Assembly: GCA_004335835.1 (NCBI GenBank)
Contig: RWJK01001566.1
Location: 28,786-92,785 of the forward strand
Origin: Scenedesmus sp. ARA3
Taxonomy: Eukaryota; Chlorophyta; Chlorophyceae; Sphaeropleales; Scenedesmaceae
DNA length: 64,000 bases
Direction: 5' to 3'
The translations under genes were made by a program, and so were the position numbers. Numbering within the stretch: the first letter of the stretch is position 1; the number at the start of each line of letters is the position of its first letter. Shown here one piece after another: positions 14,030 to 52,944 of this stretch. The notes below the pieces were generated by a model that saw only the letters and a program-made list of their open reading frames with translations, searched no databases and was not told the origin of the DNA.

Positions 14030-14440
14030 TGGCAACAACTGTAGAAACAAGCCAGCTGCAGCTGACCCTCCTCCTCTTGCTGCCGCCGCCACCGTCGCCG
14101 CCGCCGCTGCTGCTTGTCCAGCAGCCGGCCTGCCAGCGCTGGCCTCACAGCTGCCGCGCTTCTGCAGACCCCACTCACTCCCGCGCAATGAAGCGCCTGC
14201 GCTGCTTCTGCACGCCGCCATGCACCCCTGCAGACACTGCCACTGGCACCAGCAGCAGCTGACCCTCCTCCTGTTTCCCCTGCTGCTGCTGCTGCTGGAC
14301 CAGCAGCAGCAGGCCGCCCACCGGCCTGTCAGCCCTTGTCACATGTCACACACGCTGCCGTGCACCTGTACACCTCGTTGCTCACTCCCGCTCAATGAAA
14401 CACCTGCGCTGCTGCTGCACGCCTGGCAGCTGCCTTCTGC
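14030..14440 (-). repeat. Tandem duplication near helicase 3' end
   Basis: Segments 14030-14220 and about 14230-14440 are diverged copies. On the minus strand both contain GCAGCGCAGG, then (G/T)(C/T)... TTCATTG(A/C)GCGGGA followed by GTGAG(C/T), i.e. the same short coding-like end (GVQxQRRxFIxRE) with a donor. This looks like another exon-border echo, of an exon I could not firmly join to the gene. Confidence 0.55.
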
Positions 14441-16172
14441 TGACAGCAGACAGCACTGGCTTCAGGAAGCGGGACACCTCCAGTGGCTCCTCCCGCCAAG
14501 CCTCCCTGCTGAAAGCTGCCCCTGGCCAGATCATCAGGCAGTGCCTGAAGCACAAGGGCGGCGCAGGGTGAGCAGCAGGGTGAGCAGCAGGGTAAGCAGC
14601 ATGGTGAGCGGCAGGGTAAGCAGTAAGCAGCAGGGTAAGCAGTAAGCAGCAGGGTACGCAGCAGGGTAAGCAGCAGGGATGACAATGTCTCGAAATTGGA
14701 GGCAGTGTGAAGTCCTAGCATACGATAGCTGCTGTCAGCCAGGTTCAGGAAGCAGAGCCTGCAGTGCAAAGAAGGCAGCACGCATTGCGCATGCACGCAC
14801 CATGACTTGTCACACAGGATGATAATGCTGTCACCAGCCCCAGCTGGTCAGCTGCAGAGTCAGATCCAGCTCAGCTTGCCAAACACACCACGCCGCATTC
14901 CAATACACATTCAGCAGACCAAATGCGCTCACTCCTTGGCTCGCGTGATGGCCACATACAGCAGGTTCCTCTCCTGGTCCAGCACATCTGAGCCCGCGCC
15001 GGCGTCATCCTTGTGTATGGCTGGCATGGCGTCATCGTGCAGGCGCAGCAGCGCCACGCACGCAAACTCCTTGCCCTTGCTGGCATGCATCGTCATCAGC
15101 TGCACCTTCTGCGCGTCCCGCTCATCCTCATCATCCTCGCCTTGCAGGACACAGTAGTCGTACAGCTGCTGCAGCAGCGGCAGACCTGTAGTTGGCTGCA
15201 GCAGCGGCAAACTGCTGCTGCTGCTGCTGCTGCTGTTTGGCACGCCCGCATCACTCTCGCCACCATCCCCGCTCTCTAGCCCTGCTGCATTTGCTGCTGG
15301 CTCGGCTGCATCCAAGCCCAGCACAGGACTCTCTGTGTAGGCCCGCGTGTTGCGAGCCAGTTTGAGTAGAGTATCCAAGTTGCCTTTGCGCTTGCGCAGC
15401 TTCTTCAGGTCCTCGCTGCCCTTGCTGCTGAGCCGCTGCTTGGCTGCCTTTGCCTGCAGCGCTTCAAGTGCCGCCTGCAGCTCGGGGCGCACCCCAGAGG
15501 CCCCCAGCAGCAGCTGCAGCCCCCAGCAGCAGCAGTAGCAGTGGCAGGGCGCAAGGCAGTGCAGTGTGGTATGAGGCTGCTGATGCCTGGGGCTGCCGGC
15601 AGGCGCAGCAATAGCGCAAAGGGAAATTCAAATTTCATCAAATGCAGCAAACCTTGACATAGCGTCATCAGGCTCACCTCGAGCACCTCCTCAGGCCGCG
15701 ACACAGCAGCAGCAGCCCTGCCCAGCAGCAATAGAGATCCATATCCATCCACATGCAGCACAGCCAGCGCCATCAGGCTCACCTCCAGCACCTCTTCAGC
15801 CCGCGACACAGCAGCCGCACAAGCTGAAGCAGCACAGGCGGCATCACCCAGTGACGCCGCCACAAGAAAGCATAGCCATTCAGTCACAGGCAGCAAACAA
15901 GAGTTGGGCTCACCTCTAGCACCTCCTCAGGCCTTGAGACAGCAGCAGCAGCCCTGCCCAGCAGCACCAGGCCCCTCAGCCGGTCCACAGCCGCCGCCTG
16001 CTTCTTAGTCAGCTTCTTGGCACCAGCCGGCGGCTGCCATGCTGCAGCAAGCCCCTGCAGTGCCTCTGTTGAGTCTGCACCAGCAGCAGTAGCTGCGCTG
16101 TATTGATGTAGCGTTGCAATGGCCTGCTCTGAGGATGGCTCGAGCGGAAGGTCGCCTAGCAGGCAGCCGCCG

Positions 16173-16210
<38 letters not shown>

Positions 16211-17207
16211 TGCGGCAGCCTCAACAGCTGTGGCTAGGGCGTCAAATGAGTCGGGGCCTGCAGCGCAAAGCACAGAGTGCAGGGGATGTGGCAGTGGCAA
16301 ACATATGTGCATGAGTATGATAGATGTAAGCTGTCCAAGGCAGATTGCTCATCCCTGTCACCCATGCAGTTTGAACACACGGCAGTTTGCGGCAGCGACG
16401 GCTGCAGTCGTGGCATGCCACGCATCCACGCTTGCCTATACAATGATGCTGCACAGCTTCAGCTGGTGTGGCATCAAGCTGCTGCCAATCCCTTGCAGTG
16501 CTTGTCAGTCACCTCCCCTGCCAACAGATGTCGAGCCCAAGAGGCACTTAATCCTTGAACAGCGCGACTACGCTCACCTAGCCCCGACATGAGCGGCTGT
16601 ACGGCACCTTCACCTCTCAGCAGATAATGAGCTCAAAAGACACCCGCCTGTGAAAAGTGTAACTGCGCTCACCTAGCCCCGACATGAGCGGCACCTTCAC
16701 CTCTCAGCAAATAACGAGCCAAAAATACCTTCGCCTGTGAAAAGTGTAACTGCGCTCACCTAGCCCCGACATGAGCGGCACCTTGACAGGGCTGCCCTTC
16801 TTGACCAGGCGCTTCCTGATGCTGTCGCCAGCGCGCAGCGGGTCAACCAGGCAGCGCAGCAGCGCCAGCGCCACGCTGACCTCCGGAGCCTCAAAGAACT
16901 CCTCGCGGGACCACAGGTGGCACGGCACGCCGGCTGCGATCGCCTTCTTGTACACCTCGTTAACCTAGGTGGCAGCAGCAGCAGCAGTAGGCCAGCTCAA
17001 GAGGGAGTATCAGTGCGCGCGGGACCACAGGTGGCACGGCACGCCCGCTGCGATAGCCTTCTTGTACACCTCGTTGACCTAGGTGGCAGCAGCAGCAGCA
17101 GCAGCAGCAGGCCAGCTCGTGAGGGAGTATCAGTGCGCGCGGGACCACAGGTGGCATGGCACGCGCACTGCGATTGCCTGCTTGTACACCTCGACCACCT
17201 GCAGGCC

Positions 17208-17239
<32 letters not shown>

Positions 17240-17260
17240 CGACCGACCGACCGACCGACC

Positions 17261-17292
<32 letters not shown>

Positions 17293-17331
17293 GGCAGGCA
17301 GGCAGGCAGGCAGGCAGACAGACAGGCAGGC

Positions 17332-17362
<31 letters not shown>

Positions 17363-20300
17363 TAGACAGACAGACAGACAGACAGAAGCTCTGAGTGAGT
17401 GCACAGGCGCACGGCGCACATAGCTTGCAACAGTTGAGAAGAGCATGCGGCATCTTGCACAGATCCCAGGTGATATCTGCGCGCTGCAGGAGCTGGCACG
17501 CTGCTGTTTGTTGGGTCACCTGGCCCTGAACAGCACAGCTGTCTCGCCCCACACGCTGTGCAATTTCTGCATGAATTATGTCCCACCTGTTACTTGCATG
17601 TCCTAACATCTGCCTCTTACACTGTGCTCACCAGGCGTTTGGCCCTGAACAGCACCGCCATCTCGCCCCACACATAGCCGGCCTCATGCCACCTGCGCAG
17701 CTGCAGCACCACCTGCGAGCCCCAGCATATGAGCACGCACCAGCAAGCGACATCATGTGTCGTTTCAAACCTGCTGATAGCGGTGATGCCCATGCAGCTA
17801 TGCACACGTCATGGCAAGCTCTGCAGGTAAGCTGTGTGAGAACCAGTGTGCAGCAGCATTCACTGGGGTGGGGTGGGGTGTGTAAGCTGCTCCTGAGCTG
17901 CTCCCAGTAACACGCTGCGTGCGCCAACCACCTGTCAGGTTACAGCAACTTCACACTGTACCGTGCAGTTCACCCGGTTTGCACAGCTACTTGACACCAC
18001 CACGGCGGAAACTTGCAGGAACTTGCAGGAAGCCGGCAGCATCTTGCAGGAAACTTGCAGGAAAACAGCCCACCTGGTCCGCCTCGTCGTACTCATTCCT
18101 GGCCTCCATGAGCACAACTGTGTCCAGCCTGACAACAGGCTGCCTGCTGCGGCCTGATGCAGCAATGCTGCTCGACAGCCTGCAGCCAGCAGGCACACAA
18201 CATTGCGTCAACACCTGCAAATGTTGACTGCTTACAGACACGGTTGATGAGGTTTGACCTGCCCTGCTTGAATGAATGAATAAAGGAGCTACGCGTGGTG
18301 TTCACACTGAACACCCACGTAAGTTGAGGAAGGGGACGTGTGTGGCGATGACGATACCTCATGCGCCTCCACGCCTCCTACCAATTGCCCTGCTTTGTCT
18401 AGATATGATGTGTTCTGCTTATGCTGCACAACGCCACCTGCTTGCCGCGCCACTGCACCAGCTCTGCCACCTGCACGATTGACTCAACACCAATGCGGCT
18501 CTATTGCATGAGTGGAAGTTTGCAGCCCACCGTCCTATGCAGCTGCGGAGTAGCTTGTCACGCACCTGCCGTGCCGCGCAACAGCTATGCCACCTGACAA
18601 TGGGGTCAACACCAATGCGGCTCTTTCTGCATACCTTCTGTTGGGCATTGCAGCCCACAACCCATGCAGCACATGAGCAGCTTATCACGCACCTGCCGTG
18701 GCGCCGCACCAGCTCTGCCACCTGCACAACGGGCTCCCGGCTGCGGTAATTCTCTGACAGCGAGCGTGTGGCAGCAGTGGGGCCGTACAGCTGGGAGAAG
18801 CTCTGCACGCAGCAAGCAGCAAACACACAGCAGTTGTTTCCTCAACTCATCCTCATACGATCCAGCATTTACAGGCAGTGACAGCTGCGCTGACCGGCAT
18901 AGCTGCAGCAGAGCCCCAGCAAAGCACTTCGCGCAGCAGGGATGTGATCTGCATGTGACAGCAGAGAGCCTGTGCTCTGTGCACAGCAAGCAAGGGCAGC
19001 ACAGACAAGCACACCATGTGCGCTGCTCTACGCATGCTGCACCCAATCCCCAAGTGCATTGCTTGCGTGATCTCGCGGCACCCGCCCAGAATTACGCGCC
19101 CCAAATTGCAAGCAACGCTGCATACCTCCGCCAGCAGGGCAGACTTGGCCCCTCGGAAGCCGTAGATGCCCTGGGAATTTGAAAGGCGGCAGCAACAGCA
19201 GCAGTGGCAGCGCCAGCAGGAGTAGCAGCAGCGGCCGGAGCAGCAGCAGGAGCAATGAAGGTCAGCTGCAGCAAGGGCGCCAGCTTCCAGGAGCACAACG
19301 CAGGACACAGCCCACAGCATGCGCTGTTTGATTATGGAAATGCTGAACAAGGCGGCACCAAACTCTCACTCCAGAGATCTATGCGATGCCTGCAGATGAC
19401 ATTGCAGCCTGCAGCACAGGCGGTATGGTGCATCATGCCGTAACAGGTCAGGGTGCCCCGCGGCCCCCCATGAACAGGCAACATAGCAGAGCACAAGTGT
19501 TTGAGCCCCCCAGCCATGAACAGGCAACACAGCAGGGCCCATGTGATTGGGCCCCCAGCCATGATTAGGCTGCTGCCACCTTGTGCATTGTGATTTGAAG
19601 GCAGTCAACCCCACACCGTTGGCTACAGCACTCTAGTTTTTTGATACAATCGTCACGTAGCAGTCATGTAACAGTCATGTGACGGAGCTGGCCCCTACCT
19701 GGTCCAGGTCTCCCACCATGAACAGGCTGCTGCTGGGGCTGGTCAGCCGCTGCACCAGCTCAAACTGGCACAGGCTTGTGCATGTAACAGCCATATGACA
19801 GTCATGTAACAGTCATGTAAACAGTCATGTAACATGAGACTCACCTGGTCGGGGTCCCCCACCATGAACAGGCTGCTGCTGGGGCTGGTCAGCGCCTGCA
19901 CCAGCTCAAACTGGCACAGGTTGGTGTCCTGCGACTCATCCACAAGCACGTGCCGCCAGCGGCGGTGCACCGCAGCCCTGACCTGCGGCGTTTGCAGGCA
20001 TCGCAGGGCTACTCTTGGGTGCAGGAAGCAGCAAAGACGCTGATACAAACAAGCGCAGTGTGCTTGCAGGGCGTTTTATTGCAGTGTTTGTTGGTGTACA
20101 TTGCAAGGTGCACCTTTTTCTCCCTACGCGCCACACACATTGCAAACTTCCCATGCCTCACCTCAGTGTTGTTCAGCAGCAGCGCAAGGCAGTGGTGCAG
20201 CAGATCATCAAAGTCCAGCAGCTGCTGCTGCGCCATGCGGGCCACGTACTCGTCATACATGGCAGCGATGCGGCGTGTGATGTTGCTGTTGTCACCACCT

Positions 20301-22165
20301 GGCAGGCTGCGCCCCGCTGCAGCCATCTGTGCAATCAGCTCTGCGCCAGACCGTCTGCAGTTTGGACATCCCAGGGGCGTGTGATCACCCAATTGTATTG
20401 GTCACGAGCGCAACTTGCCGTTGCTATGTCGACATGGTATGTGTGTACGGAGGCGGGTCAAACCACGGGAAATTCAAACCAAGGGGATGCTGCAGCACAG
20501 ATGCCTTGGCTTGGCTGCGGCTATCCTTTGTCTTGATTATTTGATGCAGCGCATTGGTTAGCAGCATTGCGCTTCATTCTGAGGCTCTTCTGCAGGCACA
20601 CAATTCAACATCTTGCCCTTCATTGTTGCATGATCAGTGTATGTCAGTCACTAGTCAATAACACGCAGGCTCACCGCTCAATGTTCACACAGAAGTTCTT
20701 GATGTTGCTGATGTGCTTGCGGTAGTACGTCACCTCGTCCTTGCCCTTCCGGTCCTGCTGCTCGCCGGCAAAGTAGCCCAGCTCCTTTCTGAACTCTGCG
20801 TTCTCAAGGATGGACTTGACCATGGCTGCCGCATCTTCTTCGCTCGCCACTTGGAAGTTTGGCAGGTGCGTGTGCTGCCTGTAGTGCCTGCAGGGACGCC
20901 ACAGCAGCAGCGCGGAGAGGTGTGATGGCACGTGCGGAAGTTCACAGTGCACCGCGCCGCTGTTTCAACAGCCCGTTGCTCTGCCGCATACAAGCACACG
21001 TCTGCATGCCGACTTTCTCATGTTCCTGCATGAGGCAGGAGATCTTACCCCCCTCCCCCTCCCCCCAACCCACCTCAGCAGGTTGGTGCACAGCGAGTGG
21101 AAGGTGCTGGGCCGCAGCTGGGCAGTTTCTGCCTCACCCAGCAGCTCCTGTAGCCACTAGTGCTCCCTACCCCTCGCACTCCTGCGAGCCGTTCCAAACC
21201 TGCGAGCCGCTCCAAACCTGCGAGCCGTTCTAAACCTGCGAGCCGTTCTAAACCTGAGGTGACATGCCTTCAATCCTGCCATCTCCCACCCCACACATGT
21301 TTACTGGTTCCATTGCTTGCTGCAGCAGGAGCTGCCCCGCTGTCACTGGTTGCTCCTTACTCCCCCCTCACCTCAGGAGGTTGGTGCACAGCGAGTGGAA
21401 GGTGCTGGGCCGCAGCCGTGCTGTTACTGCCTCACCCTGCAGCTCCTGTAGCCACTAGTGTTTAGTACCACTGTACTCATGCAGGCTGTGGTGACAGGCC
21501 TTACAAACCCACCATCTACCCACCCGGCACACACCACCTCGTTCCCCCCTTTGCTTCTGCAGCAAGGAGGCAGCCGTCCCCCTGTAAATGTGCATCACGC
21601 CTGCCACTCTCCTCACCACAGCAGGTTGGCGCACAGCAGGTGGGAGGTGCTGGGCCGCAGCTGGGCAGTTACTGCCTCACCCAGCAGCGCCTGCAGCCAC
21701 TAGTGCTCCTTTTTAGTTTTGAGGATTTGACCGACTGGCTATCCACTGCTCGCAACACAGTTCAGATCACTTGCTTGCGTTGAAAGCAGCTTTACACATT
21801 ACCTGTACCCCTCGCACTCCTGCGAGCCGTTCCAAACCTGTGGTGGCATGCCTTCAATCCCGCCACCTCCCACCCCACACATGTTTACTGGTTTCATTGC
21901 TTGCTGCAGCAGGAGCTGTCCCCCTGTCACTGGCTGCTCCTTACTCCACCCTCACCTCAGCAGGTTGGTGCACAGCGAGTGGAAGGTGCTGGGCCGCAGC
22001 CGCGCTGTTATTGCTTCGCCCAGCAGCTCCTGCAGCCTCTGCAGCAGCTCGCCTGCTGCCTTGCGAGTGAAGGTGATGACCAGCAGCGACTCAGGCGCGT
22101 GGCCGGAGGCGATGAGGTGCGCCACTCGGGCTGCAACCACGCGCGTCTTGCCGCTGCCAGGGCCT

Positions 22166-22207
<42 letters not shown>

Positions 22208-22439
22208 AAAAGTTGGGTTGGTTTGGCTCTTCAGACAGAGGCGGGCAGCAGCGGAGGGCACAGCAGATGGAAGAGGTGGACCGGAGCTTCAGCATGTGTG
22301 TTGGGTGGAAATGACCACCAGCAGCGACTCGGGCGCGTGGTCGGATGCAATGAGGTGCGCCACGCGCGCTGCAACCACGCGCGTCTTGCCGCTGCCAGGG
22401 CCTGCAGCAGGAGCAGCAGCAGCAGGAGCAGCAGCAGCA

Positions 22440-22474
<35 letters not shown>

Positions 22475-23198
22475 NNNNNNNNNNNNNNNNNNNNNNNNNN
22501 NNNNNNNNNNNNNNNNNNNNNNNNAGCAGCAGCAGCAGCAGCAGCAGCGGCAGCGGCAGCAGCAGCAGCAGCAGCGGCAGCGGCAGCAGCATTCTGCCTG
22601 AGGTGTGCCACTTGGGCTGCAACCGCGCGTCTTGCCGCTGCCAGGGCCTGAAGAAGATGACAAAACACAACGAGTTTGGGGCATTGCTATCTGATGCCAG
22701 ATCACGACATGTGGCAGCAGCGCCTGCAGTAGCCAGAGGGGTGCTGCAGCGCATGCGCTGCATTGTTCTTTTTACGCCTGCCTGGGTGAAGCAGAGGCCT
22801 GTCGTTGTTTGAACCGGCAACATTGCACACTGACATCCTCGCATAGCAGTCGACAACGTTCAAGCAACCATGCGCATGCAGTGCTGCCGTCGCCACCATC
22901 GCCAGCTGCTGCCGCAGGCAAGCTACTGCAGCACTAATAGAACGCACCTGCAATGACTGTCAGACCCAACAGACATGTAACACACAGCACAAAGACAGCG
23001 GATAACCTATGACAGCCCACCTGCAATGACTTTTACGTGCTGCTCTGGGCTGAAAGCAGCCAGCTGCTGCTCGCCATTCAGCTGCGCCAGGTATGCTTGC
23101 ACCGCTGCACGGTGCTGCTGGTCCAGCGCTGAGGACTGCAGCTGCACGGGGCTACTGCTGCTGCTGCTGGTGGTGCTGGGCTGGTGTTCTACAGGCAG

Positions 23199-23232
<34 letters not shown>

Positions 23233-24276: not shown

Positions 24277-25930
24277 ATGCTGTCCTCGAGCCTGAGCACG
24301 CGGGTCGCAGCAGCGCCACGCAATCGTGGCAGCAGATATGCCTTCAGGGCTTCAGCAGCAGTGAGTTCATGCGTGCAGCTACAGTCCGTGGTGCTGCTGC
24401 AACCCTCAGGGTCTGCTGCTGCAGCAGAGTGATCCACGTGCTGGTATGTTTGCAGGAAGCCCCAGCAGCCCAAAAGACATGCTTCATTGCAATGAACGTG
24501 TTCAAGGTGGGAGGTTGCGAGAGTATGTCTTGCCTTCTGTATGAGATGCAGTACAGCAGCAGCTGCAACTGCGTGACGCAGCCAAGCAATTGCAGCACTG
24601 GCAGCATCAGCATCTGCTGATTGCACACATGCAGCCGCTCTGTAGATGCTAATACAGTCTGCAGCATGTGGTGGGCACCTTGCAACCAGCGGCTGCATGG
24701 GCTGCCAGCTGCACTGCATTTTGAAAGGTGTGCAGCAAACACTTCCGCAAGCTCTGCCAGCAGCCTCTCATTCCAGCTAGCCATGCAGATCATACTGCAC
24801 TCACTACTTGCATTCAACAGTCTCCTGCAACCATTGATTTGCTGCAATCGACTGGCCTCCTGCAGGTGAAGCCGGAGTGTGCAGAGGACTTTGAAAATGT
24901 GTGGAAGAACCGCGAGTCGCACCTGAAGGAGATGCCTGGCTTTGTGCGCTTTGCGCTGCTCAAATGTGAGTGCCACAGCAGTATGCTGTAGTCTTCCCAC
25001 AGCAGCTGGCATCAATCCAACCTGCATGTGTCAGCACGCAGCTGCTGCACCTGCTGGCTGCAGTTCGGGTTGCTGTAAGCACCTGCAGGAGATGCCTGGC
25101 TTTGTGCGCTTTGCACTGCTCAAATGTGAGTGCCCACAGCAGTCGGCGCAGTCTTCCCACAGCAGCTGGCATCAAGCTAGCTTCCATGTGTCAGCATGCA
25201 GTTGCTGCACCTGCTGGCAGCAGTTCGGGTTGCTGTGTCAGCCACAGATGCTGGTGGGCGCATTATGCCACGCCAGCAGTGCATTTGCCGCAGCAGCAAT
25301 GCCCCAAGGTCACTTGCAGCGTGGTGCTGGGGCTGTAGCAGCAGTCAAGGGTGCTCATGTGCCCTGCGGCCGCCGCTGCTGCTGCCATAGGCTCCGGCTT
25401 CCCTAACTAAGTGCATCTCGCAGTCCACCTGGGAGAGCGGACTTGCAGCAGTTCCGTGGAATTAGGCAGATTCAAGGGATCCTTGTCACGGTGCTGCTGC
25501 TTCTGCTGCCGCCTCAGACTCTCACGTGCCCAACAAGTGTATCTTGCAGTCCCAATCCATTTGGTACACCAGACGCATTCAGAAACGATAATCTCGTATC
25601 TGTATTGCCGCTGCCGCTGCTGCAGGCTCCAACGTTCCCAACAAGTACATCTCTCAGTCCACCTGGGAGAGCGAGACGTTGACAAACCAATGACCTCAGG
25701 TGTGTAGTGCCGCCGCTGCTGCAGGCTCCAACGTGCCCAACAAGTACATCTCCCAGTCCACCTGGGAGAGCGAGGAGGCCTTCCGCGGCTGGACGCAGAG
25801 CCAGCAGTTCAGCAAAGCACACGGTGAGGCAGATAAGGACAAGGGCGGCAGCAAGCGGCCCAATGTGGGGGCCATGCTTGAGGGGCCGCCTGCACCCGAG
25901 TTCTTCAGCAGCGTGACCATGACAGAGTAG
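24277..25930 (+). CDS. IsdG-family plastid heme oxygenase (LFO1-like)
   Basis: Four exons, 24277-24360, 24456-24506, 24866-24965 and 25725-25930, join in phase to about 146 residues. The first 28 residues (MLSSSLSTRVAAAPRNRGSR...) look like a chloroplast transit peptide: Ser/Ala/Arg-rich and without acid. The rest is one antibiotic-biosynthesis-monooxygenase (ABM) fold. The IsdG catalytic triad can be placed with the right spacing: Asn42 in MNVFK, Trp101 in AFRGW and His111 in FSKAHGE (bacterial IsdG has Asn/Trp/His at 60 and 10 residue intervals; here 59 and 10). Chlamydomonas LFO1 is the known green-algal member, an iron-limitation-linked heme-degrading enzyme. Role here, heme breakdown and iron recovery in the plastid, is by homology. 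The introns hold echoes of exon 3 and exon 4 ends. A generic ABM enzyme acting on another substrate remains possible. Confidence 0.82.
25079..25245 (+). repeat. Tandem copy of exon 3 end and following intron
   Basis: Repeats 24918-25080: the last 48 exon bases (EMPGFVRFALLK), the donor and about 110 intron bases. The exon part differs at one synonymous Ala codon and at Lys/Gln. Confidence 0.9.
25405..25685 (+). repeat. Echoes of heme oxygenase exon 4 5' end
   Basis: Acceptor plus start of exon 4 (CSNVPNKYISQSTWESE, genuine from 25725) recurs nearly complete at 25617-25680. Two shorter pieces lie at about 25409-25440 (ISQSTWES part) and 25520-25555 (VPNK part). All are upstream of the exon. 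Confidence 0.85.
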
Positions 25931-29225: not shown

Positions 29226-29257
<32 letters not shown>

Positions 29258-41200: not shown

Positions 41201-44200
41201 ATGCGTGCGGGGCAGACCACAAGTTGTGTGGGCATGCTTGAGCGCCAGAGGCGCCATGCCCAAACTACATATACAAAGGTGGTGTGGCGCTGTCATGTTT
41301 GGCCGTTGTTGCCGTTTTTGTGAGTCCTGGGGCGGCGCCTGCTGATGAGTCACGAGTCTCCTGCACATCTACGAGGGCTGAGGGCAGGGGGACACCCCTG
41401 CTGCTGCTGACAACGTCTCATTTCACTACTGAAGGCCACCCAGGACTCTTGTTGGTGTATTTGAATCGACTTTGACGTGTTTGACTGTTTTGCGTGGTTG
41501 TTTCTGCTGAGTTTCTGGTGGGAAACTCATGGCCGCTACAAAGCCTGGTGCGCGCCTGTCCCATGGCGCAGCCCCTTACTTCCGCTGCCTAGACCAAGAC
41601 ATGCGCACGTCTGCAGCTGTGCCCTCGGGTGCGGCTGTGGGCGTGTGTGTGCGGCTGACAACCGGAGTCCTTACCCACGGCAGGTTGCAGCCTCCACTGC
41701 AGCCAGCCACTAATTGCACGGACCACATCTCTGTACATCACCCACCTCCCTTCCCGTCTGTGGTTTTACACTCACTGTCTCATTCCAACACAGCCAGGCT
41801 ACCTACTGGAAACATCTTATAACATGTTACAATTGTTATCTGCTCCTTGCTGCATATGGTTGTCTACCACCAGGTCAACGGGCAGTGCTGCGAGGACAAC
41901 CCCGATGCGCTGACGCACCACGAGCTGCTGCTGCCGGGGCACCTGCTGCTCAAGTTCTTCAAGGAGAAGCTTGATGACTGCCTGGCAGCGCTGGGGGAGG
42001 CAGTGAACAAGAAGCTGGAAAGCGCGCCAGACACCAACCTGCAGGTATGTTTGTGATACATTATATCGCTGTATTTATGTGTGTGTGCTTTGGGGTGCCA
42101 GTGAGGATGCTTCGGAACTGCTGGTGGGCTGCGTGTCTGCTGGTGCTGGGAGAGCACGCAAGACAAAATGATGTTGATTTATTGTTGGGTTCAGCCCATG
42201 GCCGCTACAAAGCCTGGTGCGCGCCCGTCCCATGGTGCAGCCCCTTACTTCCGCTGCCTAGACCAAGACACGTGCACGTCTGCAGTTGCGCCTTCGAGTG
42301 CAGCTGCCGGCGTGTGTGTGCGGCTGACAACCGGAGTCCTTACCCACGGCAGGCTGCAGCCTCCACTGCAGCCAGCCACTAATTGCACGGACCACATCTG
42401 CAACTTACCGCAGCTTTTACATCAAGTTGTGTCGATCGCATATCGGCGTAGCCAGGTGTAGCATCCTTGCATTTCATAGACGCGGACCACGGACTCAAGA
42501 TGCTGAAAAGTGCCACGTTTAACCGTCCATCCAGCTATTAAGCATTTAGCTACCAAGCCATCTGAAAACGGCGGCACTGTCTCGCCTCCTACAGCTGTGT
42601 CTTCTGCTGCTGCCGTTGAATTTGGCTCTTGCGACTGCCTGTGCTGAAGTTCACTGGCAATGGCACAAGACAGAAGGAGAAACGCATATCGTGGCCACTG
42701 CTGGTGTTTGCTGACTGTCTCTTTGTCTGATTGTTGCCTGCGTGCAGGACGCTGGCGTCATCCGCAAGCTGTCGGAGCGGCTGCCAGACATCGGCCGCAA
42801 GATGGAGTACCTGCTCAACACAGGTGCGGGCTTGCTTGACAAAGCGAGTGAGCAAACTCTGATCGGCTGTGGTATCCAGTCTGGTATGGTTATTGCTGTT
42901 CTGTCTACGGGCCACCCCATGTTGGTAACTGCTGAAGTCTGTTCAGCTGCCTGCGCTGAAGAGATTTTCCAGCTGCCTGCACTGAAGCGATTGTGCATCT
43001 GAGGGTGCCTGGGCAAACGTCATCTAGCCAGCTGTGTCTTACCTGCCTGTGCTGGTACCTTTCAATGCTGCCGCAGGCAACTTGGTGTCAAAGAGCGGCC
43101 TGGACCTTAGCCAGGTGTCAGGCTTCACAGTGGTGGCTGAGAAGCTCAACTTCTTCCGCTACATCAGCCACTTCAGGTAGGGTTCAAATGGCTCGACCAA
43201 GTCTTTACACCCTACTGCTGATGCGCGATGCTGCAGATGATTAGTGTTGGAGAAGATGGTTGCCATGCTGGGATGTTTTGCGTGTATGGCCGCTACAAAG
43301 CCTGGTGCGCGCCCTTCCCATGGTGCAGCCCCTTACTTCCGCTGCCTAGACCAAGACACGTGCACGTCTGCAGCTGCACCCTCGGATGCGGCTGTGGTTG
43401 TGTGCGTGCGGCTGACAACCGGAGTCCTTACCCACGGCAGGCTGCAGCCTCCACTGCAGCCAGCCACTAATTGCACGGACCACATTTGCACATATTCATC
43501 TGCCTTTTACAAAAGCTCCTGCCAGACTCAAGGCACCAGGCAACTCCACCAGCAGGCACACATATGCTCAGTCGTATCGCCGTACTAACATGCACACCCG
43601 CCTGCCGCTGCGCCGCTGCTGCCGCTGTTGCTGCTGCTGCTCCTGCTGCTCAGGTCTGTGCACCGCGGCTCCTACTTTGCTGAGCTGCGCACCACCACCG
43701 TGCGCAAGCTGCTGCCAGAGTCCTGGGGCTTCCTGTGCCCTGTGCACACCCCTGACGGCTCACCCTGCGGCCTGCTGAACCACTTCACTGCAGCCTGCTG
43801 CATCGTCACGCACGGCCCGCAGCAGCCGCAGGCGATGGAGGAGAACCTGGTGCAGGTGGGCGGCGGCGGGCTGGCTTGCAGGAAAGAGTTGATCGGCGTG
43901 TGGGACTTGCAGGAATGTGTGCTTGCAGGATTTTGTGTGAGATGGCAGGGAAATGTTAGGCAAGCCTGATGTGTTGTCAGCGGCTGCAGTTGGTACTTAA
44001 GTGAGGGCAGCCACTAGGCAGATGGCTATGACATGGAGATGCTGCAGGGTTATTTCTCTTGGATTTTGCTGTCATGTAACATGTCATGTTGTTATGCAGA
44101 GGATCTGCTGCTCAGTGATGACATATTCCTCACTCACTGAGGGGACTTTGCTCAAGTACCCCCTGCGTGATTGATACCCAAGGAATAAATTCACACCATC

Positions 44201-47200
44201 TTTCGGGGCTGAGAGCCTAGTCGGATCATGCTGCTGTGTTGTGGTTGCTGTTGTCATGTCACTTGTATGAGTGTGTGCGCCTGTATGCTGTGTTGTACAA
44301 GTAACAGTTCAGGCGTGTTGTTGGAAACTTCATATTGTGGGATGCAGTGCCTTTAATGCAGCTACGGTGCTTGTGATTGGCTTGGTGATGACAGTTCCTA
44401 CTGCCCGAGGCTAGTCCTCTGAGCGATATCACAGGAATAAAATTACACCATCTTTCGGGGCTGAAAGCCAGTCACATCACACACAGCTGTGGTTCACGTA
44501 GATGTTGCCAGCGAGCATGATAGTGTATGTGGCAATCACATTCCTTGGTTGAGCCTGTTGGCGCATCAAGTTGAGCAGGCTTGAAGGCTAGTATGTGATG
44601 TGTTAGTGTCTGTTGAACAGTATGGGTGAATTGCATGCATGCAGCACTGTATCTCTTTTCCCCTGTTGGCGGCTGTAACCTGCCACAGGGATGTTCAAGC
44701 AGTGCCACAGCAACTGGCAGCCCATTCACTTCTGTGTGCTCTCTCACACACAGGCGGTCTCGCAGGCGCTATACAGTCACATCCTCTGATGCTCACATGC
44801 ATGCTCTTTGTGCTGGGGCAGTACAGAACCGAAGCTCCCTAGTCTCTAGCATACACTTTCTCATCCCGTGGCTGACGCTTCCGTGCTGCCGCCCTGCCTG
44901 CTGCCATTGTCACAACTGCATCCGGACATATCCCTACTTCCCTTTCCAGACGTTGGTGAACCTGGGCATGCAGCCAGTGTCTGCATCGCTGCCGCCCCCG
45001 CCAGCGCCGCAGTACCTCATGGTCAACATTGATGGCAAGCTAGTCGGCTATGTGGCCAGCAGCAGGGCGCAGGAGCTGGTCAGCAGGTGGGTTTGAATGT
45101 TGTTACAGGCTAGACGTAACAACGTCGCCTGCTGGTATCATGTCTTGATTCGCTGAGGAGCATGGCACAGGGGGTGCAAAGCCGGCTTGTGTGTACTAGG
45201 GCAATGCACATCACGGGCATGCACTCACGCTGCTCGCACAGATACCCGAGCATGCTTGCCTCACTCCCTCACAGTCCTTGTTGTGCTGCGTCTGCTGCGC
45301 CTGCAGGGTGCGCGTGCTCAAGTCGCGCATGCTGTCGATAGAGCAGGGCCTGCAGCGCGTGCAGGCGGGCGAGGTCCCCGCACCAGGCAGCGCCAGCATG
45401 AGCCAGCAGGAGCAGCAGCAGCAGGAGCAGCTGCTGGACCTGCTGCGGCAGCAGGGCGGCATCAGCGGGCAGGCGCCAGCGCGCATGCTTGATGACAAGT
45501 ACCTCGCAAAGATGCAGCTGCACGGGCTCAAGGTGCGGCAGCGTTTCATCAGCCTTTTCTACATCGTTGTTAAATCTTATTTGAACTTGCTTGACAAGTA
45601 CCTCGCAAAGATGCAGCTGCACAGGCCCAAGGTGCGGCAGCGCTTGGGCAGGCACATCATATATTTTCATTTTATGTAGTATAGGCACTGTGTTGTTGTT
45701 GTCTTGCCTCTTACGCCTGCTTGAGCGACATCCTAGAAGTCGCCGAGCTGCTGCTTGCTGCTGTTGCATCCTTAGAAATACCTGCCACTGCCCCTTCTGC
45801 TGGTCTTTGTGCTTGCAGGACCAGCTGAGCAAGTGCGAGCAGTGGGTGCCGGCTCACCTAGAGATCGCTTACTTGCCGCACCAAGTAGGCCAGCCATACG
45901 GCGGCATCTTCCTCTTCACTCAGTCAGCACGCATGGCACGGCCAGTGCGCTACTGGGCAGGCGGGGGAGGCCTGGAGCTGCTGGGTACCCTGGAGCAGAG
46001 CACGCTGGACATCCACTGCCCTGATGGAGGGCCCGGTGGCACACCTGGGCTGCGCTACACACACGGCGAGCTGTCTGCAGGTGCGGTGGCTGGATGCACT
46101 GACTTGGTTGCGGTGTAAGTGTATGTGCTGAGCTATGCTCTTGCTGGCTGGCTTGCAGGAGCGCGTGTGAGGTGGCGTTGATTTGCACAGCATCTCTTGT
46201 CACTATGCTGCTGCCTGTACATTCCTGGTGCATGCCCATTTCACCTACAAGCTCAAGGATTAAAGTGTGTTTGTTGCTCTGTTGTGCTGCTGTGTAGGCT
46301 CCATGCTGTCTGTGGTAGCCAGCATGACGCCCTACTCTGACTACAACCAGTCGCCGCGCAACATGTACCAGTGCCAGATGGGCAAGCAGACCATGGGCAC
46401 ACCCGCGCAGGCGCTGCAGCACAGGACAGACACCAAGCTCTACCGCATACAGACGCCGCAGACGCCCATCGCGCGCACCGGGAGGTGCGCTGCCTGCACA
46501 TCTCGCCGGAGCGGCTGCTGCCTGTGTACTATCGTCGTGCGCTGAGCTAAGCTACTACAGTGCTTCCTTCACTTCCTGCATTTTGTTGAAAGACGATGCG
46601 CCTGAAGCATCAGCAAGGCATGTTGCATGCTGGTTTAACCTGACGCCGCAGTGCTAAAAAAAATTTGTTGTTTTGCTTGCAGGTACGATGAAATCTACAT
46701 GGACGAGTTCCCTGTGGGCACCAACGCAGTAGTGGCAGTGCTCTCCTATGCTGTGCTACGCTATGCTATGCTACTGCTAACCCAACGCTGCTGCGCTGAT
46801 GACATGCCACTTTTTTCCTCTTGCAGGTACGATGAGTTCCACATGGACGAGTTCCCTGCAGGCACCAATGCAGTGGTTGCAGTGCTCTCCTACACCGGCT
46901 ATGACATGGAGGACGCCTGCATCCTCAACAAGGCAGCGGTTGACCGCGGCTTTGCACACGGCCGGCTCATTAAGACGGAAATGGTGGACCTGCGCAGCGA
47001 GAAAGGCACCAAGCAGATCTTTGCTGCAGAGCCGCAGTCGGTGAGTGAAGCTGCGCTGTGATTCAGTGAGCCCTGCTAGGCGCCAGCGTGTGCCATGTCT
47101 GTGGTAGCTGCTTCTGGTGACTAGTTGTGCAGCCGGATTCAAGCACGTGCTGGGCAGCGTACTGACTGTCCCTTCATATGTCAGTTGCTAGGCTCAAACT

Positions 47201-49873
47201 CAAATTCAACTGCGTGTTTTTGCGTGTTTGTGCTTGCAGGAAGCTGCAGCGCGCATGGAAGCCAGCCAGCCGCGGCCCGAGGGAGCCTTTGGGCAGAAGT
47301 TCCCACAGAACTGCCCCAGCAGGCACAACAGCAGCAGCAGCAGCAGCGGCGCAGCAGCGCCTGCGGCCTCAGCAGCACGTGTGCAGCCAGCTGGGCTGCA
47401 TAAAGATGCTGAGCGGGTGGATGAGGATGGTTTGCCGCGTCCTGGAGCTGTTATATGGCCAGGGCAGACCATCTACACCACCCAGGACGTGACGACTAAG
47501 AAGTACAAGGCGCACAAGCACAAGGGAGAGGAGGTGGCGCACGTGGAGCAGGTGTGTGCTGCACTGAGAAAAGTGACATAGTAACACAGTTTGAAACGTG
47601 GGTGACAGATGGTGCCTGTGCTGCACTTGTCAAGCAGGTGTGCGTGGTTGAGCTAGTAATACAAGCTTGTGCACGCGGCACCATGGTGCATGTGTTTGCT
47701 ACGCAAGTCGCTCTATTGTGCCACTTAATTGGCGTGCTTTGCTGGCTTGCCTGTGTCAGTTGGCTGCCAGAGCCAACAATTGAACATATGTCCTCATGCG
47801 GCTTGTGCTGTACTGCTTGTTCCACAGGTGACGCTGGTTGGTGACAAGTCGGGGCTGATGCAGCGTGCCAACATCAAGATGAGCTTCAACCGCAACCCCG
47901 TCATCGGTGACAAGTTCAGCAGCAGGCACGGCCAGAAGGGAGTGCTCAGCATACTGTGGCCAGACACAGACATGCCCTACTGCGCCTCCACAGGTGCGTG
48001 CATGTGGCACTTGCTCTGCGGCCCAGATGCAGTTCATCATGTGCAAAGTTGCCACTTGCTTGAGCAGAGCAGCTGTGCAGGCGTTCAGCTACTGCCCTGG
48101 CAGTTCAGCTGCATGTGTCCGTGCTGCTCTTGCAGCAATAAGTTTTCGAGCCTGCTGCTTCAGCACGCAACAGCTGTCTCACCCTCTCTAACCCTGTCTC
48201 CGTGTGCATGTCTGCTGTGCTGTGCTGTGCTGCTGTCCTGCAGGCATGCGCCCTGACCTGATCATCAACCCTCACGCCTTCCCCTCCCGCATGACCATTG
48301 GCATGCTGGTGGAGAGCATGGCAGCAAAGGCGGGAGCGCTCACAGGCAACTTCGTGGACGCCTCACCCTTCCAGAAGTGAGTCATCACGTCTTTTGACTT
48401 TTTTTACGTTAGAATATCGGACCCCTGCTCTTGCAGGCTCAGCTCATGTTGTGATGTGGTGTGCCTGGGGCTCGTAGGGGCGTGTGTTGTTGAATCATTT
48501 GCTGTCAGGTCGTATCCCTCGGCATGCGCACGGCAACGGCTTCTCCTGCTTGATCACTCGCGCTCCTTTTCATCTTCTGACACAAATCATGCTGTCTGCT
48601 TGCACAAACCTGCAGCTGCACCGTGCCCAAGGGCCGCAAGCAGGGTGAGCAGCAGCAGCGCATCAACCCGGTCGAGGAGTTTGGCAAGCAGCTGGAGGCA
48701 GCAGGCTTTGCCAAGCACGGCCAGGAGACGATGATCAGCGGCGTCACCGGCCAGGAGATGCCCTGCGACATCTACATCGGCCTCGTGTACTACCAGCGGC
48801 TGCGGCACATGGTGTCAGACAAGTTCCAGGTGGGTTGAGGTTTGGGTTTAGTGCGGCTGTGGGTTTGCGTTGTGCTGGTTCTGAGGGTGCCCTGTGACAT
48901 CTACATTGGCCTGGTGTACTACCAGCGGCTGCGGCACATGGTGTCTGACAAGTTCCAGGTGGGTCCGGGGCGCCTCAAAAGCAGGGTGCCTGTCGCACCA
49001 CTATGTGGTGCACTCACACAGCATGGGTTGCGTGCAGCTGCCGCGAAGGAGAACCAGCAACGGTCATGATGTGTGCGCAGTTAGCCTCCCTCGACTTGCA
49101 CGTTATGACTGCGCATGCCGTTCAATGGTACCGCACTTGGTGCCGCTCGCCACTGCTTGGCAACCCACCAGTTTGACCAGCGCAACGAGGGTCCACAGCG
49201 GCACTACTGCTTCCTCAATCCTGCCCCATATGACCCATCCAGGTTTTGAATGTTGTTATTGTGTTACTTTCCAGGTGCGCTCCCTAGGCCCCATCAACCA
49301 GCTCACGCACCAGCCCATCAAGGGCCGCAAGCTGGGAGGCGGCATCCGCTTTGGAGAGATGGAGCGAGACAGCCTGCTGGCACACGGCGCAGCCTACCTG
49401 CTGCATGACCGGCTGCACACCTGCAGCGACTACCACGTGTGTGACGTGTGCACGCGCTGCGGCAGCATCCTGGCGCCGCTCAGCAAGGCGGCGGCCATCC
49501 GGGGGCTAGACACCGGCGTCATGTCAGGGGTGCAGGTGGGTTGTACGAGTGAGGTGTCATTGCAGGATTGGCTGGTTTGAAGTAGTGGTGGATTGGATTG
49601 GATGGCATAGACTTGGCCGCATTGCTTGAGTGGTTGCATCTTCGACGTACTGCTGCTGAGTCCTTGCCTTATCGCTGACGCACTGCTGCTGCTGCTGTGC
49701 CTCTGCTGTCCCTCCTCTGCCGCCTGCAGAGCACCGGTCAGGCTAAGGTGGTGTGCAGGCTCTGCGACAACAGCAGCGCCGGGATCGAGCGCGTGGCGAT
49801 GCCGTATGTGTTCAAGTACCTGGCGGCTGAGCTGGCTGCAATGAACATCAAGATCTCGGTGGGAGTCAAGTAG
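38201..49873 (+). CDS. RNA polymerase I second-largest subunit
   Basis: Makes pre-rRNA in the nucleolus as the beta-like core subunit of Pol I. I join 21 exons with full phase agreement (1278 residues): 38201-38335, 38634-38762, 39124-39366, 39709-39927, 40410-40597, 40822-40939, 41874-42044, 42748-42823, 43077-43176, 43654-43855, 44950-45086, 45307-45532, 45819-46080, 46298-46484, 46827-47040, 47240-47551, 47828-47993, 48244-48376, 48616-48829, 49275-49535, 49730-49873. Pol I identity rather than II or III follows from [40 protein letters not shown] and the end [13 protein letters not shown]. Universal elements are present: [41 protein letters not shown] (about 1000) and a C-terminal zinc site with Cys in CDVCTRCG (about 1200-1206) and CRLC (1240-1243). 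Exon 16 has a Ser/Ala insert. Intron 10 exceeds 1 kb. Four exon borders have intronic echoes. Confidence 0.96.
39944..39996 (+). repeat. CTTGCAGGA array after RPA2 exon 4 donor
   Basis: Acceptor-like CTTGCAGGA starts at 39944, 39965 and 39985, within 60 bases of the donor at 39928. Confidence 0.8.
41029..41068 (+). repeat. Echo of RPA2 exon 6 3' end
   Basis: ATGCTGGCCATGGTGCACAAGCT(G/T)TACGCGCTGGT repeats 40909-40941. The donor is GTTAGC here and GTGAGG in the exon. Confidence 0.85.
41529..41731 (+). repeat. RPA2 intronic 200-bp repeat, copy 1
   Basis: Starts ATGGCCGCTACAAAGCCTGG and ends TTGCACGGACCACATCT. About 90% or more identical to copies at 42198 and 43286. Intron 6. Confidence 0.9.
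42198..42400 (+). repeat. RPA2 intronic 200-bp repeat, copy 2
   Basis: Same boundaries as copy 1; intron 7. The frame beginning [20 protein letters not shown] stays open through the whole unit in all three copies, as does the overlapping frame ending in a shared TAA. Confidence 0.9.
43286..43488 (+). repeat. RPA2 intronic 200-bp repeat, copy 3
   Basis: Same boundaries; intron 9. Flanking sequence outside the unit differs among the three sites, so these are separate insertions rather than a duplicated intron. Confidence 0.9.
43875..43931 (+). repeat. CTTGCAGGA array after RPA2 exon 10 donor
   Basis: Copies start at 43875, 43906 and 43922, within 70 bases of the donor at 43856; same pattern as after exon 4. 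Confidence 0.8.
44181..44480 (+). repeat. Paired 40-bp repeat in RPA2 intron 10
   Basis: AGGAATAAA(T/A)T(T/-)(C)ACACCATCTTTCGGGGCTGA(G/A)AGCC occurs at about 44179-44217 and 44431-44470. The conserved core ACACCATCTTTCGGGGCTGA is identical. No function evident. Confidence 0.75.
45588..45645 (+). repeat. Echo of RPA2 exon 12 3' end
   Basis: CTTGA-CAAGTACCTCGCAAAGATGCAGCTGCAC then GTGCGGCAGCG repeats 45487-45542 ([12 protein letters not shown] plus donor) with a missing codon and two replacements near the border. Confidence 0.85.
46674..46750 (+). repeat. Echo of RPA2 exon 15 5' end
   Basis: Acceptor TTGCAG plus 23 codons ([20 protein letters not shown]) preceding the genuine exon (46827). 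Eight codons differ: five synonymous and three replacements (F/I, H/Y, A/V), all conservative. The acceptor is intact, so it could be used as an alternative start of the exon, but it lacks the downstream part. Confidence 0.88.
48890..48964 (+). repeat. Echo of RPA2 exon 19 3' end
   Basis: Repeats 48761-48835 ([20 protein letters not shown] plus FQ and donor). Only four of 23 codons differ (Cys, Ile, Leu, Ser) and every one is synonymous. Confidence 0.92.
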
Positions 49874-51339
49874 CTGCGTTGCTTGAAGAGAGCAGAGCAG
49901 TTTGGCACCTGCTGAGTGAAGGCGTTTGTTATAGTGGCATAGTCCTGCAAGAGGGCAGTGCTGCAGCAGGACCATGCCATAGCTGCTGGCCTCAGCATGC
50001 TGTGGCTGAGGCTTGCTGCTGTTGGTGGCAGCAGCAGCTGGTGTGGGCCTAGCTGCCCTTTGCAGCAGTAATGTTGTGTGCGCTGCTGCTGGCGCAACAC
50101 ACTTGCAGCTTTTGTACATATGGTTATTGACAGCGGCTGACACTGGCCATGCTGCTATGAGTGGGAGTGCGGTGACTTTGGTGTTTATGGAGTGCGGCAG
50201 CTTCTTTGCACAAAGCAGCCCATTGCCAGCATTCGATTATATGAGGATTTGATTGCTGTTGATCACTGGGCGTGGCTGCAGCTAGGCAGGTAGACAGGCT
50301 TTGTAGCAGGTCTAGAGCAGGTGTGATTTTCAGCAATTGTGAGAGGAGTTGGCGCGAAAGGCAGCCATGTGCACAGTCAGTGCTGCTGGTTGTGGGTAAT
50401 GCGACCCACAATGACATTTGATACAAAGGCATATGTGCTTCATGTGCCGCTTTCTGTTGCATGCCACCTGTTGCGTGTGTTTGTAGTGCACGCCATACGC
50501 AACGGTGTTGACCTGCAGCTGCATGAGCTGTGAGAGGCCAGCCAGCGTCTGCTTCCAAAGAATTGATTCGTACTGTTGCAGCAGTTGATGCACACAGTGT
50601 GGCAGTCACAGATGCTAGTGCCGGCTGCGTAGGTGTTGGCCGTGCAGCTGTGCTGCAGCTGCATCGGGGTCGCTGGCATCTCTGGGCACCGCTGATGCTC
50701 TGTTGTTGGCCAGCGCCCCGCACTGCTGCCTGCAAGGTTGCCAGCTGTGTGGTCCTGGCAGGCAGGCACTTGGTGCCTAGCACTGGCCTGCTAACAGGCA
50801 GTGTACGTGTGCAGTGCCACGTGGCGGGAGCCAAATGTAACGTTGGTACCCATTACAACCTCTCTGGCATCCTGTTCGCCACATCATTGCCGGGCGCACT
50901 GTCATCACAACACACTGCCAAACTGATGGTTCTATCATTGCTTGATCTACACTCCTGCCTGCCTACCCAACATGCGACCTGGCAGCTATCCCTAACCCCA
51001 CTCCTACCTGTAGCTGTAAACCCTAGCTATCCCGCACCCAATCGCCACAGCACCTGTACAGCTGTGCGCTCCTGACAGCTCCTATCCCACTCACAACCTT
51101 CACACCTAGAACGTCGAATCGTGGTCGACCTGCAACTATCTATACTAAACCCTGCTGACATCACCCGCTTGTAAAGCCTCGCATCTAGCACAGAACCCTA
51201 GCTACCTGTGTACCTGTGTACTACCCGGCTAGTACACCTGGCTGTTTAGACTGCACTGCTGTTCTATCACACTCAAGCTGCCACATCTGCGCACATCAAA
51301 GTCTGCTGGAGCACCAGCACTACTAGCTGACAGTATAGG
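49874..51339. other. Intergenic stretch between convergent genes
   Basis: Follows the RPA2 stop and precedes the tail array of the minus-strand giant gene. One 181-codon plus frame (50530-51075) has no domain signal. A plus-strand TGTAA at about 50836 is a possible RPA2 polyadenylation signal; 51000-51260 is rich in CCTAGCTA/ACCTG-type short words. Confidence 0.45.
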
Positions 51340-51666
51340 CAGCACCCGGCTGCGTGGGTTGCACTGCACCACCAGGCCACGACCACGTTGCCACAACATC
51401 AGCCCCAGCAACTTCAAACCTCACATCCAGCTGACCCTGCGGGGCGCATTAGCAGCAGCAGCATTCGGCTCCCTGTGGTGCACCACGACCACATTGCCAC
51501 AACATAAGTGAAAACTCTCCCTTTACAACATCTACAGCACTAGCTACTTGAACTTCACATCCAGCCGACCCTGGGCGCCGCATCAACAGCAGCAGCAGCC
51601 GGCTGCATGGGGTGCACCACGGCCACATTGCCACAACATCCACATCAGCACCAGTAACTTCAAACC
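51340..51666 (-). repeat. Tandem echoes of the final exon of the giant gene
   Basis: About 110-130 bp units containing TCCAGC(C/T)GACCCTG, CAGCAGCAGCA, CCGGCTGCATGGGGTGCACCAC and CCACATTGCC recur three times past the stop (starts near 51330, 51430 and 51560; coding copy from 51673). They duplicate the last roughly 35 codons (NVVVVHPMQPDAAAAADAP...). They show that the 3' end of the gene has expanded into downstream DNA. Confidence 0.85.
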
Positions 51667-52944
51667 TCACATCCAGCCGACCCTGGGCGGCGCATCAGCA
51701 GCAGCAGCAGCATCCGGCTGCATGGGGTGCACCACAACCACATTGCCGCTGCGGGTCTCGCTGCCAGCATCTCCGCTAGGGTGCACCGTCAACACGCTGC
51801 CGACTGCTTGCTCCAGCGGCGGCTGCCTTCTGGCACTTCCAAGCCCTGCAGCTCCCAGCCCTGCAGCCTGCTGCTGCTGCTGCTGCCGCGGTACCGGCAA
51901 GCCCAGCCGTACCGCCCAACCCTGCAGCTTTTGCACTCCCTGCTGCACCACAAACTGCACATCCTGCTTGGAGACGTAGCCCTTGCCATCTCTGTCCAGT
52001 AAGGACCGCACCCAGCGCACAAACTCGCTGAATGCGGCCCAGAGGTACAAACACAGCACGCAGCAGTTGACCGCAACGATAGCAGCCATTGCTGCGATGT
52101 TGACTCGCTCCTGCTGCTCAAACTGGGATAAGGAAACCAGCATGATGAGGAACAGCGTGGTCATCAGGCCAAACACGCTGACGCGCCGCAGCGTGTCTAG
52201 CATGCGGCAAGCGTACGGCTGGAAGGTCATCTGCAGGGTTGTATAGCAGCAGCAGCAGCAAGGGCAGCAGCACCAGCAGTGCAGCAGGATTGTTGTTGTT
52301 GGACTTGCTGATTCGAGCAGCATACAGCAACATCGCACCTGTGCTGCCTGCAAGAGGCTCCTCAGTAATGCAACTGACTAGCATGCAGCAGCCGAAGCAG
52401 CGTCCATGTTCGTGATAGCAACATGTTTTTGCCAATGTCTGGCGCTGCCGATATAAGCAGCCACATGACGAGTAAACCTCCAGGAGCATGTCCCCGGCCC
52501 ACTCACGTGCAGCACAGCCTCAATGAAGATGACAGCCATTGCGCACAAGCAGCTACATGCGGATGCAAGAACTGTGTGCTGGTCTCGTCAGCTGGCCGAG
52601 GTGACACCTTCTTGTGTGACATCACCTGAGAACACATACTCCAAAGCCACCAGCTCACAATGCACAACATGCACTGCAACGTGAGTACGTGAAGCCGCGG
52701 TCATATAAAAAACAATATCATTTGTAATTAACCCTGCCACCGCCCCACTCACGTGCAGCACAGCCTCAATGAAGATGACTGCCATTGCACACAGCACCTG
52801 CAGCGCCGGCGGCTGGCCTTGCAGCAGCACCAGCAGCATCGTGAGCACGCAGTTCTCGATGAGCAGCAGCGTCTCCCAGTAGTAGCAGCTGTAGCGGTAC
52901 TTGTCGTACATGAGGCCGTACTGCAGCTCAACCTGCGATTGGTG

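Follow-up and report, generated by a model that had tools for sequence, protein, structure and literature searches.

Short same-strand copies lying near each other, termed close direct repeats or short paired duplications, are known from eukaryote genomes, and short-tract gene conversion acting on such neighbouring repeats would hold a copy close in sequence to a partner under selection. Tandem duplication counts among the accepted ways in which genes gain introns (PMC3443670), and in the potato RdRp gene a single tandem duplication across an intron-exon boundary has made a new functional intron (PMC4974935). Here, we analyse a stretch of 64,000 bp (the window; positions 28,786 to 92,785 of contig RWJK01001566.1) of nuclear DNA from Scenedesmus sp. 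ARA3, a green alga near Tetradesmus obliquus with a genome assembly of 87.27 Mb in 1567 contigs, in which introns carry copies of the adjacent exon ends, in the following called echoes. The echoes belong to the same class of gene mutation as the tandem genomic duplications behind intron gain (PMC3443670), and they resemble the potato case in that a local direct duplication takes in an exon end together with its splice site. However, the potato duplication is one event in one gene and gave a functional intron (PMC4974935), whereas the algal copies are found at about 13% of the sampled exon ends, are apparently unused and follow a step of about 120 bp. In the AGGT model, a new intron is bounded by the donor of the leading copy and the acceptor of the trailing one (PMC3443670), a layout that was not found in the three genes modelled by homology (see below), where every border pair has one member entirely outside the modelled exons. 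With respect to the close direct repeats of other eukaryotes, the alga adds a limitation to exon borders and a step of about 120 and 240 bp. Among the papers listed in literature searches, with thin coverage of subscription papers, none describes widespread copying of exon borders into the introns of green algae. Duplications across a border are known as single cases; what looks new is their density, their step and their limitation to the border.

The exons of three genes of the window were derived from spliced protein alignments, and these genes are referred to as homology-modelled:

38201..49870, + strand: RPA2, the second subunit of RNA polymerase I; 21 exons and four border echoes, from spliced alignment to the T. 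obliquus protein P0002 (1267/1280 residues identical) with PDB and Pfam matches
28867..33736, − strand: HPPD, 4-hydroxyphenylpyruvate dioxygenase; 10 exons and five border echoes, from spliced alignment to P0123 (455/464 residues identical)
14385..22163, − strand: UvrD/PcrA-type helicase; 13 exons kept, six border echoes counted and several intron-only copies, from Pfam and PDB matches and spliced alignment to P0242 (535/742 residues identical)

The helicase model initially had 14 exons, of which a first exon of 19 bp was dropped, and some of its borders are uncertain. All other genes were predicted by a small hidden Markov gene finder trained from RPA2, which is not free of errors (in its final training round it reproduced 17 of the 21 exons of RPA2, its own training gene, exactly); it also recovered HPPD, which Pfam searches of 28–38 kb did not. 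For the border test, the terminal 50 bases at either end of every exon were compared by alignment with the introns on both sides, triplet runs being masked, and reverse complements as well as unrelated introns served as controls. A score of at least 36 was required in the homology-modelled genes and of at least 40 in the predicted genes, the latter being 38 other genes with at least three exons, from whose counts the homology-modelled genes are excluded.

In the homology-modelled genes, exon 3′ ends had a copy in the downstream intron in 12/40 cases and in the upstream intron in 0/40, and exon 5′ ends had one upstream in 3/40 and downstream in 0/40. Mid-exon sequence gave 0/40 upstream and 2/40 downstream, reverse complements 0/80 and other introns 1/480. 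The 38 predicted genes behave in the same manner, with copies of 3′ ends downstream in 29/221 and upstream in 5/220, and copies of 5′ ends upstream in 28/220 and downstream in 1/221; their controls gave 5/220 upstream and 5/221 downstream for mid-exon sequence, 0/441 for reverse complements and 6/2646 for other introns. A preliminary description of this DNA had claimed that introns copy the adjacent exon ends, 3′ borders always downstream and 5′ borders always upstream, and usually with GT or AG retained. The copying is real in both gene sets. The direction is borne out by 15/80 copies on the expected against 0/80 on the wrong side in the homology-modelled genes, but “always” is slightly too strong, as the predicted genes show 57/441 against 6/441. 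Five of these six wrong-side matches involve predicted exons of 51–89 bp, some of which are probably echoes themselves. The splice dinucleotide is indeed found at the homologous place in most copies (GT in 26/40, AG in 19/29). Overall, a recognisable copy on the expected side is present at about one in eight exon ends, and 51/276 predicted introns contain at least one echo.

Evidence independent of gene models comes from genome-wide profile searches, in which the same profile positions occurred twice within 300 bp at three Helicase_C loci (C693, C719 and C910) among 84 matches and at one AAA locus (C1470) among 31 matches (19 of 157 candidates scored), while the ABC profile gave no doubled positions among 25 matches (19 of 184 candidates scored). 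In agreement with the direction rule, the 3′ part is repeated downstream at C693 and C719 and the 5′ part upstream at C910; at C1470 the direction could not be determined. All four loci, when fetched, contained direct repeats only. Some Pfam matches (e.g., C719, C867, C50 and C842) carry in-frame TGA or TAA codons, perhaps by running into introns or echoes.

Taken as a whole, near repeats are in direct orientation only. Comparison of the window with itself yielded 43 direct-repeat pairs, of which 42 lie within 3 kb and 35 within 500 bp, and two inverted pairs, both more than 15 kb apart. In the window and 19 arbitrarily chosen loci taken together (243 kb) there were no inverted pairs within 1 kb, and one shuffled control per sequence also gave 0. 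The coverage by near direct pairs varies from 0 to 65% per locus, with 4/19 loci lacking any. The full sample comprises the window and 24 loci (the 19 arbitrary ones, one picked for a repeat match and four for helicase matches) and contains 383 direct pairs within 1.2 kb in 283 kb. Raw repeat counting is uninformative owing to CAG/CTG runs. Copy density was judged relative to shuffles and inverted controls only. Ordinary BLAST self-searches can miss small displacements; the displacement analysis was redone by sliding-window and border-by-border alignment, in which counts below 80 bp are still low.

The border copies of the window that touch the three homology-modelled genes and two predicted genes are as follows, displacement being the distance between source and copy:

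40905..41080, + strand: RPA2, 3′-end echo of exon 6; source 40905-40956, copy 41029-41080, displacement 124
45493..45645, + strand: RPA2, 3′-end echo of exon 12; source 45493-45546, copy 45592-45645, displacement 99
46676..46892, + strand: RPA2, upstream echo of the 5′ start of exon 15 including the acceptor; 46676-46748 copies 46820-46892, displacement 144
48759..48964, + strand: RPA2, echo of the 3′ end of exon 19 including the donor; 48759-48835 copied at 48888-48964, displacement 129, with 4/4 exon-part differences synonymous
32089..32416, − strand: HPPD, 3′-end echo of exon 32349-32518, located at 32089-32158 with displacement 258
30545..30852, − strand: HPPD, 3′-end echo of exon 30790-30954, located at 30545-30616 with displacement 236; a further shorter copy at 30390-30423
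31207..31379, − strand: HPPD, 3′-end echo of exon 31323-31471, located at 31207-31264 with displacement 113
32822..33018, − strand: HPPD, 3′-end echo of exon 32978-33210, located at 32822-32867 with displacement 151 and 80% identity
30052..30214, − strand: HPPD, upstream echo of the 5′ part of exon 29984-30096; copy at 30173-30214, displacement 121
15661..15966, − strand: helicase, ladder at the 3′ end of exon 15914-16227, with displacement 131 for the copy 15776-15819 and 236 for the copy 15671-15730
16904..17193, − strand: helicase, near-contiguous tandem copy spanning the 5′ border of exon 16751-16955; 176 bp, displacement 114, 90% identity, scored by TRF as 2.5 units of 120 bp
22079..22656, − strand: helicase, upstream copies of the 5′ end of exon 21956-22163 at 22317-22443 and 22599-22656, from the window self-comparison
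24919..25236, + strand: ABM-domain gene, contiguous tandem copy spanning the 3′ border of predicted exon 24866-24965; displacement 160
25623..25774, + strand: ABM-domain gene, upstream echo of the 5′ border of predicted exon 25725-25930; displacement 99
51339..51747, − strand: TRP-like gene, local copies around the 3′ border of predicted exon 51671-52230; displacements 112-253
52494..52802, − strand: TRP-like gene, echo of the 3′ border of predicted exon 52753-52920; displacement 246

The gene previously labelled a heme oxygenase encodes an ABM-domain protein. The beta-helix label given to the TRP-like gene was not confirmed: 377 of its 729 predicted residues were tested, and these match a TRP channel family. 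A (CAGA)n array of 180 bp (17207-17386) in a helicase intron directly adjoins the tandem exon-border copy at 16904..17193.

The complete set of border copies numbers 72, with 15 in the homology-modelled and 57 in the predicted genes; seven are contiguous tandem copies and 65 are separated from their source by a spacer. In the latter, the match extends 21–87 bp into the exon, and only 1–30 bp into the intron in 47/65, further in 15, while three end before the border. Displacements cluster at 99–151 bp (44/72) and at 220–260 bp (10/72), and in line with this a sliding-window search of the 283 kb (225 events) also gave peaks at 110–130 and 230–260 bp. A middle copy, mostly near half the distance, was detectable in 26/46 events with displacements of 205–285 bp (three of the 26 being coding repeats at one locus), as in a ladder. 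Intron-only events fell at 100–140 bp in 12/39 cases, and the 27 intergenic or mixed events have no peak. Neither the clustering at about 120 and 240 bp nor the ending of copies near the exon border was part of the preliminary description. Its suggestion that the copies lengthen introns fits the median intron lengths of 444 bp with (n = 51) and 254 bp without an echo (n = 225), but longer introns also give copies more room.

Among 177 pairs, 46% (81/177) touch an exon on one side, 15% on both, 12% are exon-exon, 16% intron-only and 11% intergenic or mixed, against 30%, 9%, 11%, 26% and 24% predicted by random placement with the observed lengths and displacements. An excess at borders was not found in the three homology-modelled genes (9/16 border and 7 intron-only, against expected shares of 46% and 38%). 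Since exon copies stay detectable longer, one partner being constrained, the overall excess is no proof of targeting, and the case for a special preference for exon borders is weak.

If the copies arose as tandem units, the intron after the echo must resemble the intron after the exon. A first test of this (11/59 rows at p < 0.05, some with few or no controls) was replaced by later tests and a simulation. In these, intron similarity continued past the alignment edge in 10/58 tested copies, compared with 1/53 past the exon-side edge. Divided by side, it was found in 7/24 copies beside acceptors and 3/32 beside donors (the identity bins omit two of the 58), the higher share at acceptors being expected where similarity survives beside a constrained real copy. 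By a wider count, which includes contiguous copies and copies reaching at least 30 bp into the intron, seven contiguous and 21 partial copies, i.e. 28/68, retain some intron similarity, and 40/68 are without a detectable intron half (the 68 being the 72 minus four copies with displacements above 300 bp). All three classes keep the same register, with 27/40 border-limited, 13/21 partial and 4/7 contiguous copies at 99–151 bp. In addition, for 26/54 spacers the match to nearby DNA in direct orientation surpassed the best one among six unrelated controls (about eight expected by chance), compared with 5/54 in inverse orientation. As border-limited copies thus stand in tandem register and spacers often have direct relatives nearby, we read the copies as having a common tandem origin followed by later re-copying of the half that matches the exon.

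A second strain bears on this reading. In the T. obliquus HPPD gene model OEZ86_005546 (P0122; NCBI), from a contig of 5.66 Mb, three copies of the end of exon 32349-32518 are located at residues 166, 218 and 240, compared with two in the window DNA and one each in P0123 and in P0124, which comes from a relative at 82% identity. The source sequence of P0123 is at most 2721 bp long and thus shorter than the 4.9-kb gene, so that P0123 is probably a transcript without the echo. The first echo of P0122 equals that of the window in 22/22 residues, whereas the alignable flanking intron, comparable only since the P0122 model translates that stretch, agrees in 14/23, with the seven residues nearest the echo all identical. 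The HPPD echo is therefore no assembly error, and its presence in a separate gene model contradicts a confinement to one assembly. From these protein-level comparisons, echo copy number appears to vary between strains, and at this single site the echo is, as judged from the alignment, changing more slowly than its flank. The deposited P0122 model seems to include two echoes as exon sequence, and public T. obliquus annotations may hold spurious repeated peptides.

Tandem duplication with subsequent exon-anchored re-copying is the account that we favour, albeit tentatively and with somewhat less than even confidence. According to this account, frequent local direct duplication, by whatever enzymatic route, would act with a typical step of about 120 bp and, where repeated, would build ladders of 2 × 120 bp. 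Duplications within an exon would usually break the protein and be lost, while those within an intron, or across a border with the exon end and splice site still joined to the exon, would survive. A survivor would leave a presumably dead copy downstream of the 3′ end or upstream of the 5′ end and a longer intron, and the unselected intron half of the duplicated unit would afterwards drift off. In the most conjectural step, short conversion events that depend on homology, or else template switching, would renew the exon-matching half from the exon, and only this half, because only it still has a partner held constant by selection. For the algal echoes we infer such short-tract conversion from the contrast between exon part and intron part. 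The more far-reaching idea that introns grow by fixed local steps of about 120 bp while exons refresh the dead copies, so that gene borders would act as sources of self-renewing decoy splice sites, is less likely still.

Several points weigh against this account. The re-copying step draws on the one protein-level HPPD comparison and on the contrast between exon and intron parts, and the seven intron residues beside the HPPD echo are likewise identical. Conversion should at first homogenise the intron parts too, and a stop at the border is so far a matter of argument. The step of about 120 bp has no explanation in the proposed mechanism. The lack of intron similarity in all nine copies with an exon-part identity of at least 97% equally fits the copying of a short patch. 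Finally, the synonymous share of exon-echo differences over the 72 copies (0.57) lies above the share expected for a dead copy of a constrained exon (about 0.42, a hand estimate from random-mutation figures).

Plain tandem duplication with a step of about 120 bp and neutral decay, with nothing else, would be one alternative, and local tandem duplication spanning splice junctions had already been put forward in the preliminary description. The near copies in direct orientation only, the step, the middle copies and ladders, and the seven contiguous and 21 partial copies all speak for duplication as such; the direction rule follows from selection, random placement gives many exon-touching pairs, and the homology-modelled genes lack an excess. 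What plain decay leaves unaccounted for is the missing intron half. When decay at equal rates was simulated with the measured echo divergence (simple substitution and indel models, no large deletions), 96% of the copies kept intron similarity, in contrast to the 28/68 or 10/58 seen; in that simulation, a retention of 41% would need introns evolving about six times faster than the echoes that lie in them, and one of 17% a factor of 8–12. We therefore consider plain decay rather improbable as the whole explanation.

To about the same degree improbable is truncated local copying, in which template switching would insert, at a distance of about 120 bp, a copy of some 60 bp with its centre on the exon side of the border, and no intron half would ever have existed. 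Both edges of the copies are sharp, none of nine (0/9) continuing into the intron even at the identity of at least 97% mentioned above, and the extents of the 65 spacer copies, reaching 21–87 bp into the exon and mostly little into the intron, agree with such a patch. However, these copies share their displacement register with true tandem copies, about half of the spacers have a nearby direct relative (26/54), and the better keeping of the HPPD echo than of its flank between strains is left unexplained.

A function of the echoes as decoy splice sites or alternative exons, kept by selection, is considerably less likely. The exon-echo differences, 285 in 3426 aligned sites (about 8%), are distributed over codon positions 1/2/3 as 62/49/174, i.e. 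with a clear excess at third positions (174/285); 55/72 copies have no frameshift gap, donor and acceptor are often intact, and the protein sequence of the HPPD echo is the same in another strain. On the other hand, 17/72 copies do have frameshift gaps, nine differences create stop codons, the splice dinucleotide is in place in only 45/69, and the probable transcript P0123 lacks the echo. Selection at the protein level, suggested strongly by the synonymous share over all 72 copies, weakens to 0.52 in the three homology-modelled genes and to 0.48, near the dead-copy estimate, in the 23 copies with a frameshift or stop (32/24/66 by codon position); the echoes are best read as non-coding, with a residual synonymous excess left over.

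A mobile element, such as an introner, that inserted and left a long target-site duplication would give the observed layout of direct repeat, spacer and direct repeat, but this is very improbable: two searched spacer-spanning stretches match only themselves genome-wide, and among 54 spacers a match with a score of at least 40 was found in other sampled loci in no case and nearby in 11. An artefact of assembly or annotation, for which the fragmentation into 1567 contigs and one 50-base gap in the window might speak, is already largely refuted by the divergence of about 8% between copies and source and by the T. obliquus model with the same HPPD echo on its 5.66-Mb contig, and is the least probable of all.

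Taken together, the data point to active local duplication, by which introns become longer and gene prediction is misled. The echoes would represent one direct route to longer introns, dense enough for study between strains, and make intron growth and the handling of decoy sites by splicing testable in a culturable alga. Their shared step of about 120 bp gives a hint of how the duplications arise. They also explain wrong gene models such as, apparently, P0122 and the exon call of the gene finder on part of the echo of RPA2 exon 19.

Among the 34 local pairs in the three homology-modelled genes, 24 touch an exon, and three of the remaining ten are accounted for by one repeat of 205 bp, which occurs in RPA2 introns 6, 7 and 9 (41529-41733, 42198-42402 and 43286-43490) in the same orientation and with 93–94% identity. 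One more copy, at 82%, on contig C1269 is the sole other one among the genome matches listed; this repeat is a case of local copy-and-paste into several introns of one gene. A short motif, CTTGCAGGAAACA, has 429 occurrences in the genome, against 0 for its reversed control, forms small clusters at some places and is found in the window at 1789-1950, 18044 and 39945-39993.

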